Virus record (IMG/VR): IMGVR_UViG_3300024261_000110
Location: 1 to 30,898 of that record
DNA: 30,898 nt
From: a virus
Reading direction: 5' to 3' (one strand)
Shown here: positions 660 through 28,916 of the stretch, piece by piece
Position numbering within the stretch: position 1 is the stretch's first letter
How the letters are laid out: each line of letters starts with the position of its first letter
Notes under the pieces: generated by a model
The model's input: the letters and a program-made list of their open reading frames with translations, nothing else
Told to the model about the DNA's origin: nothing
Database searches by the model: none
Made by a program: the position numbers and the translations under genes

Positions 660-1592
660 ATGAGAAATGATTTTTTATGGGTTGAGAAATATCGCCCAGC
701 CACTATTGATGAATGTATTTTAGATGAATCTTTAAAGACTACATTTAAACAAATAATTAAGAGTGGTGAGCTTCCAAACATGATGTTTACTGGTTCAGCG
801 GGTGTAGGTAAGACTACTGTAGCCAGAGCACTTTGTAATGAAATGGGGCTTGATCATATAATCATTAACGGTTCGGAAGATGGAAACATCGATACTCTTC
901 GTGGTAAAATCAAACAGTTCGCTTCAACTGTTTCATTACAGGGAGGATATAAAGTAGTCATTTTAGATGAGGCTGATTACCTAAACCCCCAATCTACTCA
1001 ACCGGCTCTTCGTGGATTCATTGAAGAGTTCTCTAACAACTGTCGATTCATTCTAACTTGTAACTTCAAGAATAGAATTATTGAACCATTGCACTCACGG
1101 TGTTCTGTGTATGAATTCAATACTGGTTCAAAGGCTATCATGGCCGGTCAATTCATGGAACGTCTTAAGACTATCTTAACAACTGAACATATCAAGTTTG
1201 AAGATAGAGTTGTTGCTGAACTAATCATGAAACATATGCCTGACTGGAGGCGTGTCCTGAATGAATGTCAACGGTACAGTGTTGGTGGTACTATTGATGC
1301 AGGCATTCTAGTGACATTATCAGAAACGTCTATTAAAGAACTTATGGTTGACCTTAAGAAAAAGAACTTTAAAGGTATGCGTAAATGGGTTGTGGATAAC
1401 ATTGATATGGAGAGTGCTAAGTTATTCAGAATGATATATGATAACATGCTAGAGTATGTTGATCCTTCTTATATACCTCAATTGGTTATGACACTTGCCG
1501 ACTACTCATATAAAGATGCATTCGTTGCAGATCATGAATTGAATACTGTTGCTTGTCTCACCGAGATCATGTCACAAGGTCAATTTAAATGA
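660..1592 (+). CDS. 44: Sliding clamp loader ATPase subunit (gp44)
   Basis: 310 residues; T4 gp44 has 319. AAA+ ATPase that, with gp62, loads the gp45 clamp at primer-template junctions. The N-terminus 'LWVEKYRP' is the classic clamp-loader opening. Walker A is GSAGVGKT near residues 45-52, Walker B is VVILDEAD near 99-106, and the SRC arginine-finger motif is near 146-148. GGAG at 650-653 sets the ATG start at 660. It overlaps gene 62 by 4 bases (ATGA), matching the T4 44-62-regA-43 order and implying translational coupling. Transcription is from P1 through a structured leader. Identity is secure. Confidence 0.97.
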   Translation: MRNDFLWVEKYRPATIDECILDESLKTTFKQIIKSGELPNMMFTGSAGVGKTTVARALCNEMGLDHIIINGSEDGNIDTLRGKIKQFASTVSLQGGYKVVILDEADYLNPQSTQPALRGFIEEFSNNCRFILTCNFKNRIIEPLHSRCSVYEFNTGSKAIMAGQFMERLKTILTTEHIKFEDRVVAELIMKHMPDWRRVLNECQRYSVGGTIDAGILVTLSETSIKELMVDLKKKNFKGMRKWVVDNIDMESAKLFRMIYDNMLEYVDPSYIPQLVMTLADYSYKDAFVADHELNTVACLTEIMSQGQFK

Positions 1593-2002
1593 CACTAAAT
1601 CGTAACACCAATGCCTTAGATAAGAATCCGTTCTCTTATTTAAATGCTATTAATAAAAATGTATGGTATCATTTTAAAGATACTGTAATAGATAACAAAG
1701 ACTATCCGGCCTTTATGGTTAACCGCGGTCTTTCTTATTTTCCTGACACTGTGTTATACGCTAATGAGATGAATATGAAAGCACATGTCGATGGACAATT
1801 ACAATTCGCGTTTTATATAAATATTATCAGGAAACGTAAACGTTTCTCGAAGTGGAATAAAGCTTCTGAGTCTGATGATATAAAATCTATTAAAGAATAC
1901 TACGGGTATTCGAATGAAAAGGCCAGAGACGTTCTTCCGCTTTTAACTAATAATCAGTTGAAAATTATAAAGGAACGTATAGATCATGGTGGAACTAAAT
2001 GA
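1589..2002 (+). CDS. 62: Clamp loader small subunit (gp62)
   Basis: 137 residues, shorter than T4 gp62 (187). Accessory subunit that holds the gp44 tetramer in the clamp-loading complex. Seen: 'NPFSYLNAIN' at the N-terminus, 'YPAFMVNRGLSYFPDTVLY' and a basic 'YINIIRKRKRFSKW', matching the gp62 pattern including the conserved NR.LSYF.D segment. The start ATG overlaps the gp44 stop by 4 bases, and its 3' end overlaps the regA reading frame by 17 bases if RegA starts at 1986. Position between 44 and regA is strong supporting context. Confidence 0.93.
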   Translation: MTLNRNTNALDKNPFSYLNAINKNVWYHFKDTVIDNKDYPAFMVNRGLSYFPDTVLYANEMNMKAHVDGQLQFAFYINIIRKRKRFSKWNKASESDDIKSIKEYYGYSNEKARDVLPLLTNNQLKIIKERIDHGGTK

Positions 2003-25882: not shown

Positions 25883-27046
25883 ATGAGTTGTAAAATATTT
25901 TCACTAGGTGAGACAGTACATAGTAAAGGCACAAGGTTATTTTTAGGTGAGAATTCATGTCATAGAAACATTCAGACATATCATGATCCGAAGTATCCTT
26001 GGATTCTGGACTTTGCAGAAGAGATGAGAAGTATTGGTAATTGGAGTAAGAATGAGATTGACTTATCAAAGGAGAAGAAAGACTTTGAATCACTAGATGA
26101 AGCCGGTAAGCATATCTATGAAGCAGGTTTAAAGTTTGCTATTACATTAGATAGTTGTGCTGGTCGTGCCCCTCTTCAGTTGTTTAATAATGGTGGTATA
26201 TCTAATAACCCTGAATGGGAATTATATATTACAAATCACCAGAACAATGAGTTACTGCATTCAGAGTCTTATACGGAAATGGTTCGTGCAATCTATAATG
26301 ATGTAGACCTATTCGTTGATTCTATCACATCGGATCCAGAAGTACAGAAAAGAGCTACTTCTATTTTAGGCGCATTCGATTGGGCAACAGGTGTATTTGA
26401 TAGAATGGATGCTAACTCAACCGCTGTTAATCATGGTATGGCAAAACCTTTCCCTGAAGTTGATGAAAAGATGATTAAGACTGCAATTTACAAAGCTGCA
26501 CTTGTTCTTAATATGTTTGAAGGTATTAGATTCTTCTGTACATTCGTTACTAACTGGAGTTTCTCTGAGCAACCAACTAAACTTATGGCTGGCTCAAGTA
26601 ATATCTTTAAGCTAATTGCAAGAGATGAGATGATCCATTTAGATATTGTTCAACGTGTACTTAAAATGCTACGAACAGATGAGAGTGAAGGATTCGTTGA
26701 GATTGCACAAGAGCTTGAAGATGAAACATATGAAATGTTTGAAGTAGCATATAAAGAAGAGATGGATTGGGTTGAATATCTATTCTCTAAAGGCACTCCC
26801 CTGATTGGTATGAATGAACATATCTTGAAAGAGTACATGGATTATATCTTTGTGGTACGGATGACCAACATTGGTTTAAATCCATCTAAGCTAGGTCTTG
26901 CTATTGGACATAATCCATTACCGTGGGTAGATAATTACCTTGATTCAACTAATGTTAAGAGTGCACCGCAAGAGATTGAGAGTGTTAACTACATCGCTGC
27001 TATTGATTCAAGTAAAGATGAAGACTTTGATATGGAGGATTTATAA
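25883..27046 (+). CDS. nrdB: Ribonucleoside-diphosphate reductase, class I small subunit
   Basis: 387 residues from the ATG at 25883, which has AGGAG nine bases upstream; an upstream in-frame ATG at 25832 lies within nrdA. Di-iron, tyrosyl-radical subunit. Iron ligands are visible: Glu123 and His126 in 'ELLHSESY', Glu213 in 'FEGIRFF', and Glu249 and His252 in 'RDEMIH'. Tyr130 sits four residues after His126, as the radical Tyr122 does in the E. coli enzyme. The acidic C-terminal end 'DEDFDMEDL' is the tail that docks into NrdA. It is followed after one base by the TusE/DsrC gene. Confidence 0.97.
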   Translation: MSCKIFSLGETVHSKGTRLFLGENSCHRNIQTYHDPKYPWILDFAEEMRSIGNWSKNEIDLSKEKKDFESLDEAGKHIYEAGLKFAITLDSCAGRAPLQLFNNGGISNNPEWELYITNHQNNELLHSESYTEMVRAIYNDVDLFVDSITSDPEVQKRATSILGAFDWATGVFDRMDANSTAVNHGMAKPFPEVDEKMIKTAIYKAALVLNMFEGIRFFCTFVTNWSFSEQPTKLMAGSSNIFKLIARDEMIHLDIVQRVLKMLRTDESEGFVEIAQELEDETYEMFEVAYKEEMDWVEYLFSKGTPLIGMNEHILKEYMDYIFVVRMTNIGLNPSKLGLAIGHNPLPWVDNYLDSTNVKSAPQEIESVNYIAAIDSSKDEDFDMEDL

Positions 27047-27047
27047 T

Positions 27048-27335
27048 ATGTTAGATAGAACAGGAAATGGGTACCTTGAGGATCCAACAATTTGGTCGGA
27101 AGAAATAATGTTTGAAATGGCCAAGGAAGATGACATTGTATTAACAGAGTCTATGGTAAAGCAAATTATGCAAGCAAGAGAATACTTTGAAGAGAATCAA
27201 GCCGTGCCACCAATTAGAACATTCTCTAAGTATGTTGGTATTGATAAGAAGGTGCTATTCAAAGAATGGTTGACAGGTCCAATGAAACCTATTAGTAAGT
27301 ATGGCGGAATGCCACAACCACGAGGTTGCGTGTAA
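27048..27335 (+). CDS. TusE/DsrC-family sulfur-relay protein
   Basis: 95 residues from the ATG at 27048 (GGAGG upstream). 'WSEEIMFEMAKEDDIVLTE' opens the family fold. 'YFEENQAVPPIRTFSKYVG' matches the conserved helix-turn with P-P-I-R, and the end 'GGMPQPRGCV' carries the invariant penultimate Cys (PkPtGCV). DsrC carries sulfur for dissimilatory sulfite reductase and TusE relays sulfur for tRNA 2-thiolation. Only the one conserved C-terminal Cys is visible (the second DsrC Cys, about 10 residues earlier, is absent), which fits TusE better. Placed directly after nrdB. Virus-borne members are known in marine phages; the role here is inferred. Confidence 0.9.
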   Translation: MLDRTGNGYLEDPTIWSEEIMFEMAKEDDIVLTESMVKQIMQAREYFEENQAVPPIRTFSKYVGIDKKVLFKEWLTGPMKPISKYGGMPQPRGCV

Positions 27336-27341
27336 ATAACG

Positions 27342-27376
27342 GTGTACATTTGCTGAGAAATATGTTATAATAGATA
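27342..27376 (+). promoter_or_regulatory. Promoter P7 (TGTACA-16-TATAAT)
   Basis: TGTACA 27344-27349 and TATAAT 27366-27371, with a 16-bp spacer, one shorter than its siblings, and the shared TTTGCTG element. It precedes the small membrane protein and tmRNA region and would transcribe both. Confidence 0.85.
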
Positions 27377-27386
27377 TATTAAAATG

Positions 27387-27394
27387 TATAAATA
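27387..27394 (+). promoter_or_regulatory. Late promoter TATAAATA
   Basis: An exact late box 16 bases after the -10 box of P7, in noncoding DNA. The gene at 27476 and the tmRNA could therefore be made both early and late. Confidence 0.6.
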
Positions 27395-27475: not shown

Positions 27476-27694
27476 ATGTTAGATAAAATCAATGCTTGGA
27501 TCAAAGCAGGTACAGAAACTGGTGTAGCACTAATTGCATTTGCAATCGTATTACAGGTTATTTTCGGTGGAACGGTTCCATTTGTAGGTGGTGACATCAT
27601 CGCTACAATTACTGGTATCGTATCACAACTTGGTGCTCAAGGCCTAGTAGGTCTAGTAGCAGCTGCTGTACTATACAAGTTATTTAATAAGTAA
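27476..27694 (+). CDS. Small two-helix membrane protein
   Basis: 72 residues. After a short amphipathic start ('MLDKINAWIKAGTETG') come a hydrophobic helix ('VALIAFAIVLQVIFGG'), a glycine-rich turn ('FVGGDIIATITGI') and a second helix ('GLVGLVAAAVLYKLF'), ending in a lysine. Length and shape fit a holin-like or other pore or exclusion protein. Similar two-helix proteins occur in marine T4-like phages without tested function. AGAGGT precedes the ATG. Both early-type and late-type promoters lie upstream, and the tmRNA follows directly. Confidence 0.8.
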   Translation: MLDKINAWIKAGTETGVALIAFAIVLQVIFGGTVPFVGGDIIATITGIVSQLGAQGLVGLVAAAVLYKLFNK

Positions 27695-27739
27695 TAGCTC
27701 AAAGTTTAGTAGAACTTAAAACTACGAACCACTTCATAA

Positions 27740-27858
27740 TGGGAGATAAGGTTAGGCTAAAGTCTATCGAGTGCTTCCACCAAATTTGGTAATTTATTAC
27801 CATTTACTATTGATTGGAGTTATGATACACGGTGGTTCGAACCCACCCATCTCCACCA
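27740..27858 (+). ncRNA. ssrA: Circularly permuted tmRNA, acceptor piece
   Basis: The 3' end is a full tRNA-like acceptor: T-arm GGTGG (27831-27835), loop TTCGAAC, CCACC (27843-27847), acceptor strand CATCTCC (27848-27854), then A-CCA ending at 27858. CATCTCC pairs with GGGGATG at 27889-27895 (one G-U). GTTATGAT (27819-27826) pairs with ATCGTAAC (27909-27916, one G-U) to form helix P2. Both partners lie downstream, so the 3' part precedes the 5' part. A hairpin TGGTAA/TTACCA sits at 27787-27802. The 5' limit is uncertain; ATAAGGTT (27746-27753) complements AACCTTAT in the coding piece and may be the joining helix. Confidence 0.82.
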
Positions 27859-27888
27859 AAAGTGTATTATTAACAGTATGCTTTTGAT
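27859..27888 (+). other. Intervening segment of the permuted tmRNA
   Basis: Thirty bases between the CCA end of the acceptor piece and the GGGG start of the coding piece. In two-piece tmRNAs this loop is removed from the precursor by tRNA-processing enzymes. Confidence 0.65.
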
Positions 27889-28046
27889 GGGGATGACTTG
27901 GAATCGACATCGTAACAGAAGGTTAATAGTTGTAAGACCCAAAGTAAACGCTAACGCAAATACTTACGCAATCGCAGCCTGATAGGCATAGTGTGATTTG
28001 AGGATTTAGGCAGGATGAACCTTATAACCAAATCATCCTCCACCAA
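27889..28046 (+). ncRNA. ssrA: Circularly permuted tmRNA, coding (tag) piece
   Basis: Begins GGGGATGACTTGG-AATCGAC, the tmRNA 5' acceptor strand and D-loop signature. It then has the P2 strand ATCGTAAC (27909-27916). The tag frame runs from about GTA 27944 to stop TGA 27980-27982, reading VNANANTYAIAA; the E. coli tag is AANDENYALAA. The stop lies in the loop of a GCC-TGATA-GGC hairpin, as in bacterial tmRNAs. The resume codon (GTA, or the next) is inferred. After the stop, GGATGA (28013-28018) pairs with TCATCC (28033-28038). The 3' limit is uncertain. It would rescue stalled ribosomes and tag products for ClpXP-type proteases through the AIAA end. Confidence 0.83.
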
Positions 28047-28092
28047 ATTATAGTATATATAGATTGATTGATTAATTTACAGGAATGATTAA

Positions 28093-28347
28093 ATGAACCA
28101 CAATATTATATGGACAACTAACTACTGTCCATTTTGTGACAAAGCAAAGAGGCTTTTAGACAAAGCTAACATTGAATATGAAACACGGCTAGTTGATGAA
28201 GTGCAATGGACTAAAGCTGACTTACTAACATTAGCGCCTAACGCTACAACATACCCGCAAATCTTTTTAAACGATAACCATATTGGTGGTTCTGACGAAT
28301 TAGAAGCATATCTATTTTTAGAGGAGACTTCTTTCGATGATCTGTAG
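28093..28347 (+). CDS. Glutaredoxin
   Basis: 84 residues, the usual size of phage glutaredoxins. The 'CPFC' active site is at residues 12-15, 'YPQIFLNDNHIGGSDEL' carries the cis-Pro and the glutathione-binding GG(S)D, and the fold is otherwise standard. A dithiol glutaredoxin can reduce the C-terminal Cys pair of the NrdA encoded upstream. AGGA lies 10 bases before the ATG. Its 3' end overlaps the zinc-ribbon gene by 11 bases. Confidence 0.93.
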   Translation: MNHNIIWTTNYCPFCDKAKRLLDKANIEYETRLVDEVQWTKADLLTLAPNATTYPQIFLNDNHIGGSDELEAYLFLEETSFDDL

Positions 28348-28495
28348 AGAGTGTAATACAGAATATGAAGTTCTAGTTGATGTTGATGTTAAAGAAATGG
28401 TATCAACTGCTGAAATGGACATGGACACACCCTACTGCCCTTTCTGTGGTGAAGAGCAGGAGTGGCGAGATGGATTCGACGAAGTGGACGTATAA
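28337..28495 (+). CDS. Small zinc-ribbon protein, 52 residues
   Basis: The ATG at 28337 lies within the glutaredoxin end, with AGGAG 11 bases upstream. Two Cys pairs, 'CREC' at residues 3-6 and 'CPFC' at 34-37, frame an acidic middle; such a C-x2-C...C-x2-C layout should bind one zinc. The product is very acidic, so direct DNA binding is unlikely and protein contact (for example with RNA polymerase) more so. No family is named. It overlaps the GIY-YIG gene by 26 bases. Confidence 0.7.
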   Translation: MICRECNTEYEVLVDVDVKEMVSTAEMDMDTPYCPFCGEEQEWRDGFDEVDV

Positions 28496-28916
28496 AGGAG
28501 AAGAGTTTACTTCAGAAGATGTTGGTGAGTACTATGGGTTTATCTACCGCATCACTAATCTTAGTAATGGACACGACTATCTTGGGAGAAAATATTTTAA
28601 AAGTAAGAGAAAACTTAAGCCTCTCAAAGGTAAAAAGAATAAAAGACACCGGATAGTTGAAACTGACTGGAAAGACTACTATGGTTCATCAAAAAGATTG
28701 TTAGAAGACATTGAAGAGTTAGGAAAGGAAAACTTTACAAGAGAAATCATAGAGCTATGTACTACAAGAGGTAATACAAACTATGCGGAATTGGTATGGC
28801 AAGTAAATGAAGAAGTGTTATTGAGAGAAGATTCTTATAATGGTATTATTGCTATTAAGATAGGGGTTGGATCAGTTAAAAATTATATAATGGAGAAAGA
28901 AGATGGTAATAGTTGA
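28470..28916 (+). CDS. GIY-YIG-type endonuclease
   Basis: 148 residues from the ATG at 28470, which has AGGAG seven bases upstream; an earlier in-frame ATG at 28377 lies over the zinc-ribbon gene. 'YYGFIYRITNL' and 'DYLGRKYF' are the two halves of the GIY-YIG motif (GFI...YLG), 'WKDYYGSSKRLLEDI' holds the helix with conserved residues, and 'FTREIIELC' and 'EVLLRED' follow, with the catalytic Glu region. Free-standing phage members may be homing nucleases or act in DNA repair; no intron or invaded gene is visible beside it. Overlaps rnh by 14 bases. Confidence 0.85.
   Translation: MDSTKWTYKGEEFTSEDVGEYYGFIYRITNLSNGHDYLGRKYFKSKRKLKPLKGKKNKRHRIVETDWKDYYGSSKRLLEDIEELGKENFTREIIELCTTRGNTNYAELVWQVNEEVLLREDSYNGIIAIKIGVGSVKNYIMEKEDGNS

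Follow-up and report, generated by a model that had tools for sequence, protein, structure and literature searches.

A permuted tmRNA gene with a conserved tag in a T4-like phage known from environmental DNA

Results

The locus and its phage

The window, by which we mean the whole stretch of DNA analysed here, is the complete IMG/VR virus record IMGVR_UViG_3300024261_000110 (30,898 bases). At the locus, nrdA, nrdB, a DsrC/TusE-like gene, a gene for a 72-aa protein, a permuted tmRNA gene, and a thioredoxin/glutaredoxin-like gene follow one another (Table 1). Members of T4-like PHROG families are also present—the clamp loader (two genes), translation repressor, DNA polymerase, UvsX-like recombinase, and DnaB-like helicase—and on these core replication genes we judge the virus, known from environmental DNA alone, to be a T4-like phage. 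Its nearest polymerase among 50,697 phage records is 50.4% identical and belongs to phage C48C1 (filed under Kyanoviridae), in which the Rfam permuted tmRNA model RF04321 has no match.

The DsrC/TusE-like gene (27024-27332) overlaps the end of nrdB and resembles the dsrC_1 type of SUP05 viral contigs. Its product keeps the penultimate cysteine, carries serine in place of the other cysteine of the solved homologue 1yx3, and is seven residues short of that homologue; among 112 phage DsrC sequences, only the second of two cysteine motifs is reported, and most are thought to be TusE-like (PMC8190135). A SUP05-type host is a guess, for which we see the chances as evenly balanced. As separate observations, a SegE-type GIY-YIG domain protein (28377-28916) adjoins the glutaredoxin-like gene downstream of the tmRNA, and a protein at 16065-17366 matches the PHROG 'ribosomal protein S6 glutaminyl transferase' and is perhaps another translation-related gene.

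Table 1. Features of the tmRNA locus, with positions in the window unless a contig is named
Feature	Position	Strand	Basis and remarks
Possible sigma70-like promoter	27343-27371	+	consensus match alone
Possible T4 late-type box TATAAATA	27387-27394	+	consensus match alone
72-aa protein gene	27476-27694	+	two hydrophobic stretches (by eye); usually just upstream of the tmRNA family
Conserved stem-loop, separate from tmRNA	about 27738-27781	+	core pattern in 28 viral contigs
Acceptor piece of two-piece tmRNA	27806-27858	+	sequence, ARAGORN, RF04321, covariation; 5' end approximate
P2b 5' strand	27806-27813	+	acceptor piece
P2 5' strand	27819-27826	+	acceptor piece
T stem	27831-27835/27843-27847	+	acceptor piece; loop TTCGAAC
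Acceptor 3' strand	27848-27854	+	followed by A73 and CCA 27856-27858
Intervening sequence (IVS)	27859-27888	+	30 nt, predicted 10-bp fold; hairpin presumably excised by tRNA-type processing
Coding piece (mRNA-like)	27889-28039	+	begins GGGGATG, ends about the 3' hairpin; 3' end approximate
Acceptor 5' strand GGGGATG	27889-27895	+	G3-U70 wobble is 27891 with 27852
P2 3' strand	27909-27916	+	covariation across the permutation
P2b 3' strand	27923-27930	+	covariation across the permutation
Tag frame ANANTYAIAA, then TGA TAG	27950-27985	+	tag 27950-27979; ARAGORN, resume context
Stop hairpin	27977-27979/27985-27987	+	short hairpin with the stops in its loop
3' hairpin of coding piece	28012-28018/28033-28039	+	7 bp; loop with CCTTATAACCAAA
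ROSE_3 matches under cut-off	L042 5839-5902; L121 4908-4972; L137 2355-2417		

Architecture of the permuted tmRNA

ARAGORN called a permuted tmRNA (tmRNA*) at 27765-28073 with the tag ANANTYAIAA, and made tmRNA calls in 0/200 dinucleotide-preserving shuffles of the window. A covariance-model search had been proposed as a check: RF04321 (tmRNA_permuted) covers 27805-27982 at 75.5 bits against a cut-off of 47 (E 5.6e-13), whereas the best of the older sub-models, RF01850 (beta_tmRNA), spans 27753-28045 at 71.4 bits and stays under its cut-off of 84. Among eight relatives (contigs are given L numbers), L032 (100.1 bits) and L033 (93.2) pass the beta_tmRNA cut-off, L050 (83.7), L121, L036, L137, and L042 fail it, and for L038 the best sub-model is alpha_tmRNA (71.8 bits, cut-off 50).

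On the plus strand, the elements run T-arm, acceptor 3' strand, CCA, IVS, GGGGATG, D-loop (TCGAC), P2, tag, and stops, and the T-arm and P2 helix are present in place of an anticodon arm. The order that had first drawn attention to the locus—a CCA-ending T-arm and acceptor strand (27831-27858) ahead of the GGGGATG segment—is thus seen in the sequence, and both helices described across the permutation can form: CATCTCC pairs with GGGGATG at 7/7 positions in the acceptor stem (P1), and GTTATGAT with ATCGTAAC at 8/8 positions in P2, each with one U-G pair. The 10-bp hairpin that the IVS can form has a z-score of -1.9, with 9/200 shuffles folding equally well; in L004 the IVS is replaced by a 38-nt hairpin with a z-score of -8.4, although the tRNA-like domain of L004 is 100% identical to that of the window.

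The resume codon is GCT at 27950, preceded by U at -5 and A at -4 (27946). These positions resemble the conserved U85 and A86 in the upstream sequence of E. coli tmRNA (PMC2481249), and the RF04321 alignment sets GCT 27950 opposite the consensus GCA; together they point to a tag of ten residues. The original prediction was right to place the stop in a hairpin loop, but the tag is ANANTYAIAA, with small hydrophobic residues at its end, and not VNANANTYAIAA.

A viral tmRNA family sharing one tag

A pattern for the permuted junction found 29 viral contigs, with an ARAGORN tmRNA* call in 29/29 and the tag ANA[N/D]TYAIAA in 15. The tag pattern itself occurs in 36 viral stretches, and a pattern that lies beyond the tag, at the coding piece's 3' end, in 35, all of which (35/35) lie within the 36; many of these stretches, as of the 37 family contigs (window included), are near-identical. 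The tag pattern gave 0 matches in genome contigs (at least 3 kb) of 84,980 bacterial and archaeal species, and a second exact-pattern scan of the same collection also gave 0, which leaves no cellular outgroup for deciding between the origins first suggested, capture from an alphaproteobacterial, betaproteobacterial, or cyanobacterial host and independent evolution. Compared with 50,697 phage records, the window's tmRNA locus had no match at E 1e-5; at E up to 10, partial matches appeared in 105 records, the best 75% identical over 80 nt and none covering 80% of the locus.

The same tag, ANA[N/D]TYAIAA, stands with four different T-loops: TTCGAAC, TTCAATT, TGCGAAT, and GGCAGTA. The GGCAGTA pattern occurs in 117 contigs, 50 of them with an ARAGORN tmRNA call, and 45/50 of these carry other tags. 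Unusually long tags of 22-30 residues are predicted for the permuted phage tmRNAs of L026, L066, L087/L088, and L206/L271.

Tag conservation bears on the possibility that the RNA is mainly a decoy, tying up host SmpB/tmRNA function in the manner of the TLD-only RNA of mycobacteriophage DS6A. A TLD-only RNA from a phage is on record, and tmRNA is reportedly inhibited by a molecule like it (PMC4131195); a decoy, however, would not need the tag, stops, and resume context, and their being intact and conserved here speaks against this explanation, which we regard as highly unlikely.

Covariation across the permutation

The 34 family members that passed filtering represent 13 distinct sequences. Ten sequences from related phages were aligned and scored over 38 named pairs. 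The wider comparison set kept 148/157 permuted calls, among them L050, which ARAGORN misses and Rfam finds and which was added by hand; its filter required full acceptor pairing and G3-U70, so that these features are not independent evidence there. In the ten-sequence alignment, 95.2% of cells are paired over the 38 pairs, and 20 pairs have changed on both sides, with at least three such pairs in 5/6 named helices. The observed percentage paired, the double-change counts, and the covariation score were each reached by 0/500 shuffles, and the weakest measure, the number of further pair types, by 60/500; sliding the partner by 1-3 columns reduced the covariation score from 0.50 to at most 0.13.

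The acceptor stem is paired in 100% of cells, with 3/7 pairs changed on both sides and 4/7 invariant. It occurs as CATCTCC/GGGGATG, CAACTCC/GGGGTTG, CGACTCC/GGGGTTG, CGACTCC/GGGGTCG, and CACCTAC/GTGGGTG, with the U70-G3 wobble in all, and the alanine identity elements G3-U70 and A73, as well as CCA, are kept in 10/10 sequences. Pairing reaches 100% of cells in the T stem, 96.3% in P2, and 90.0% in P2b. Comparison of the sequences thus gives direct evidence, in these paired changes across the permutation, that both halves function together as a single tRNA-like domain.

The same changes weigh against a decaying or inactive tmRNA copy taken from a host and kept by chance. T4-like phages readily gain and lose tRNA genes, and one relative does carry debris of this kind: behind its coding piece, L036 has a decayed second IVS hairpin and coding-piece start (about 1567-1641, minus strand), which shares 84% identity with the IVS region of L042 and 88% with that of L137; the local scores are 67 (L042) and 70 (L137), and 300 single-base shuffles gave no more than 28 and 23. 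Against L036's own IVS it scores 19 versus 18 in shuffles, and it is possibly the scar of a tandem duplication. Compensatory changes in the acceptor stem, T stem, P2, P2b, and 3' hairpin, together with a tag that is intact in 35/35 contigs of the tag-independent search (many of them near-copies), nevertheless argue against decay of the gene itself, and the chance that it is a decayed copy seems remote.

The 3' hairpin of the coding piece is paired in 90.0% of cells, with both-side changes in three pairs and several pairs broken in L050 and L033. The CTCCACCA that follows the coding piece, where the coordinates first given for the gene run out, might suggest a one-piece tmRNA whose 3' end is 28045, but this reading is barely conceivable: no T-arm precedes CTCCACCA, the strand before it pairs into the covarying 3' hairpin, and L032, L033, L036, L038, and L050 lack CCACCA at the equivalent site while keeping the permuted acceptor stem. 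CCACCA behind the coding piece was also considered as a general feature, and we make no such claim for it; it occurs in 14/83 distinct pieces against a background of 0.025 per 105 positions, many of the occurrences being interrelated or parts of stems.

A linked 72-aa gene and other flanking elements

A gene for the 72-aa protein lies within 1.5 kb upstream of the tmRNA in 29/31 assessable family contigs and in 3/3 contigs with the tag ANDDYALLAA, compared with 0/104 other permuted tmRNA loci with room for it. Six of the 37 family contigs were not long enough for assessment, and L005 and L015 had room yet lack the gene; the 104 include L087 and L088, whose contigs also carry the gene, about 3.5 kb upstream. 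Separately, a 43% identical relative of the protein is found in L210, L223, L245, L275, and L297, about 4 kb downstream of the GGCAGTA pattern; these five contigs are without an ARAGORN tmRNA call and were left out of the count.

The gene and the tmRNA form a unit that occupies different genome sites. In the window and L004, it has the DsrC-like gene, itself behind nrdB, on one side and the glutaredoxin-like gene on the other; in L032 its neighbours are the DsrC-like gene and nrdB, and in L036, L042, L137, L160, and L121 they are regA and hsp20. Between the window and L036, the 72-aa protein is 97% identical, as against 62% for regA and 67% for hsp20, while the DNA of the 72-aa gene is about 78-88% identical, so that strong constraint, rather than recent transfer alone, explains the likeness. 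The protein has no match in PHROGs, Pfam, or PADLOC and none in the phage records, where the BLAST low-complexity filter may hide hydrophobic relatives; its two hydrophobic stretches, read by eye, suggest that it may have a holin-like role. Upstream of hsp20 genes, we noted matches to the ROSE_3 RNA thermometer at 36.3-37.5 bits, under the cut-off of 43 (Table 1); the window has none at E up to 0.5.

Between the 72-aa gene and the tmRNA lies a conserved stem-loop that had been included in the gene as originally delimited (27740-28046). In L087, L088, and L089, this element has no tmRNA directly after it—in L087 and L088 a different tmRNA follows about 3.5 kb beyond—and 27740-27781 is therefore not part of the tmRNA. 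The other end of that range also needs correction, since CTCCACCA at 28045 follows the 3' hairpin and is not an acceptor end. We likewise discarded a reading of GGAGATA at 27742 and of 28034-28045 as the remains of two outer acceptors from a tandem duplication, since the former belongs to the separate element and the latter to the 3' hairpin.

Several smaller observations concern the same flanks. The conserved stretch 27698-27785, after the 72-aa gene, contains stems that by eye vary compensatingly (TGGGAG/CTTCCA, TGGAAG/CTTCCA, GGGAG/CTCCC), and we consider it a candidate structured RNA; an Rfam search over 27500-28200 gave no match for it and, at E up to 5, none for a glutamine riboswitch like that of phage Melnitz. 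An 11-nt direct repeat, TCCACCAAATT, flanks the tmRNA at 27776-27786 and 28039-28049, its only two copies in the window, and is kept in some relatives and missing in others. The promoter candidates of Table 1 are weak, because promoter-like sites in the region (6 versus 3.8 expected) and late boxes in the window (7 versus 6.35 expected) are close to expectation.

Probable separate histories of the tRNA-like part and the tag part

The two parts of the gene differ in their pattern of similarity among related phages. The 89-nt tRNA-like domain of L036 is identical at 89/89 positions to that of L137/L160, whereas the tags are ANADTYAIAA and ANDDYALLAA and the coding parts of L036 and L137 are 75% identical (16 substitutions and 16 gap columns). 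Between L036 and the window the situation is reversed: identity is 96% in the coding parts (five substitutions) and 77% in the tRNA-like domains (12 substitutions and 10 gap columns). How the substitutions divide between the parts differs between the L036-L137 and L036-window pairs (Fisher p 2e-5), as it does with L005 replacing the window (p 3e-7) and for L121-L137 versus L036-L137 (p 2e-5); two further comparisons of the five were not significant (p 0.11 and 0.29), and the pairs and clades for these tests were picked after the identities had been seen. A sliding comparison places the switch point in L036 between P2b and the tag. Coding data reject a clade of L036 and L137 (AU p 0.0009), and tRNA-like data do not reject a clade of the window, L005, L036, and L042 (p 0.43) when L137, identical to L036, is left free.

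Over 5-6 kb of DNA, L036-type phages share about 89% identity with L137/L160-type phages (with L040 as reference), whereas L040 matches the window at 65.5-78% identity in the matched stretches outside the tmRNA/72-aa unit. Movement of the tag part between phage lineages is the simplest reading. Six metagenomes with different numbers contain L036-type contigs, and L137 and L160 derive, among the matches listed, from two others, which argues against one assembly error as the cause. In L020, an upstream part of L004 type is joined to a downstream part of L005 type, and this contig may be an assembly chimera. These comparisons support, but do not prove, that in related phages the two parts of the gene have had separate histories.

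Discussion

We conclude that the locus is very probably a working permuted tmRNA gene of a T4-like phage; RF04321, ARAGORN, covariation, and the T4 replication families all bear out the central claim of the original prediction. The steps by which it would act are drawn from general knowledge of tmRNA. A single precursor would be transcribed from the permuted gene, and host tRNA-processing enzymes would remove the IVS hairpin, with RNase P acting before 27889 and 3' processing at CCA 27858. The acceptor stem and P2/P2b would keep the two resulting RNAs joined, and the host alanyl-tRNA synthetase would charge the molecule via G3-U70. Searches of the window and of 14 virus records with permuted tmRNAs (nine of the same family), all possibly fragments, turned up no SmpB, so that host SmpB would be needed to bring the charged RNA to stalled ribosomes. 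Translation would then resume at GCT 27950, append ANANTYAIAA, and stop at TGA/TAG. The likely benefit is that ribosomes stalled on broken mRNA during infection would be recycled and the protein fragments marked for proteolysis.

The permuted order suggests a possible evolutionary use—the tRNA-like domain is one DNA stretch and could be exchanged without touching the tag. A fuller proposal, which as a whole we hold to be an even call, is that this order makes the tmRNA a set of exchangeable blocks swapped among T4-like phages. The blocks would be the tRNA-like domain with P2 around the IVS, the tag-bearing part, and the IVS; ANA[N/D]TYAIAA would thereby have come to stand on several tRNA-like classes, and one tRNA-like domain to carry two tags. 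The same proposal would have the unit, together with its small membrane-type protein, sit at two genome sites (the nrd region and regA-hsp20) and let the phage tag proteins its own way. Phage tmRNAs are known but little studied, and a family with a conserved tag that is absent from the genome collection, apparently traded block by block among phages and linked to a small membrane-type protein gene, makes phage rewriting of host protein tagging testable.

That a permuted tmRNA should be a surprise in a phage is not supported. The two-piece form is reported to be common in marine phages: of 133 unique phage tmRNAs counted, 53 are two-piece, 50 of them marine or aquatic (PMC9004378, 2022), and the many more permuted tmRNAs that turned up in viral contigs here likewise indicate that the kind is not rare. 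In the tmRNA database of 2025, bacteriophages contribute 79 sequences, all forms included (PMC11915505). We did not find the tag string ANANTYAIAA in the open-licence papers searched, nor, in the portions of those papers covered by searches not aimed at the 72-aa protein, block exchange of tmRNA parts or the linked protein.

The window's tmRNA shares with RF04321 and RF01850 the acceptor-first order, IVS, acceptor stem, P2, T-arm, and resume region, and has TGGAATCGAC where the RF04321 consensus has UGGUUUCGAC. The tmRNAs of Bacillus phage G and of mycobacteriophages such as Bxz1 and DS6A are known as standard one-piece genes, unlike that of the window. Phage-borne ssrA is listed for Bacillus phage G and for mycobacteriophages such as Bxz1 and DS6A (2014 list, PMC4131195). 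Methylophilales phage Melnitz is described as a marine myophage that, like the window, has T4-like genes and a permuted ssrA (PMC9004378); going by that description, it is set apart by a glutamine riboswitch, for which 27500-28200 of the window has no match, and by different neighbour genes. The phage two-piece tmRNA is therefore already known as a kind, and what looks new is a family with its own tag, the 72-aa gene that usually lies close upstream, and the apparent swapping of parts.
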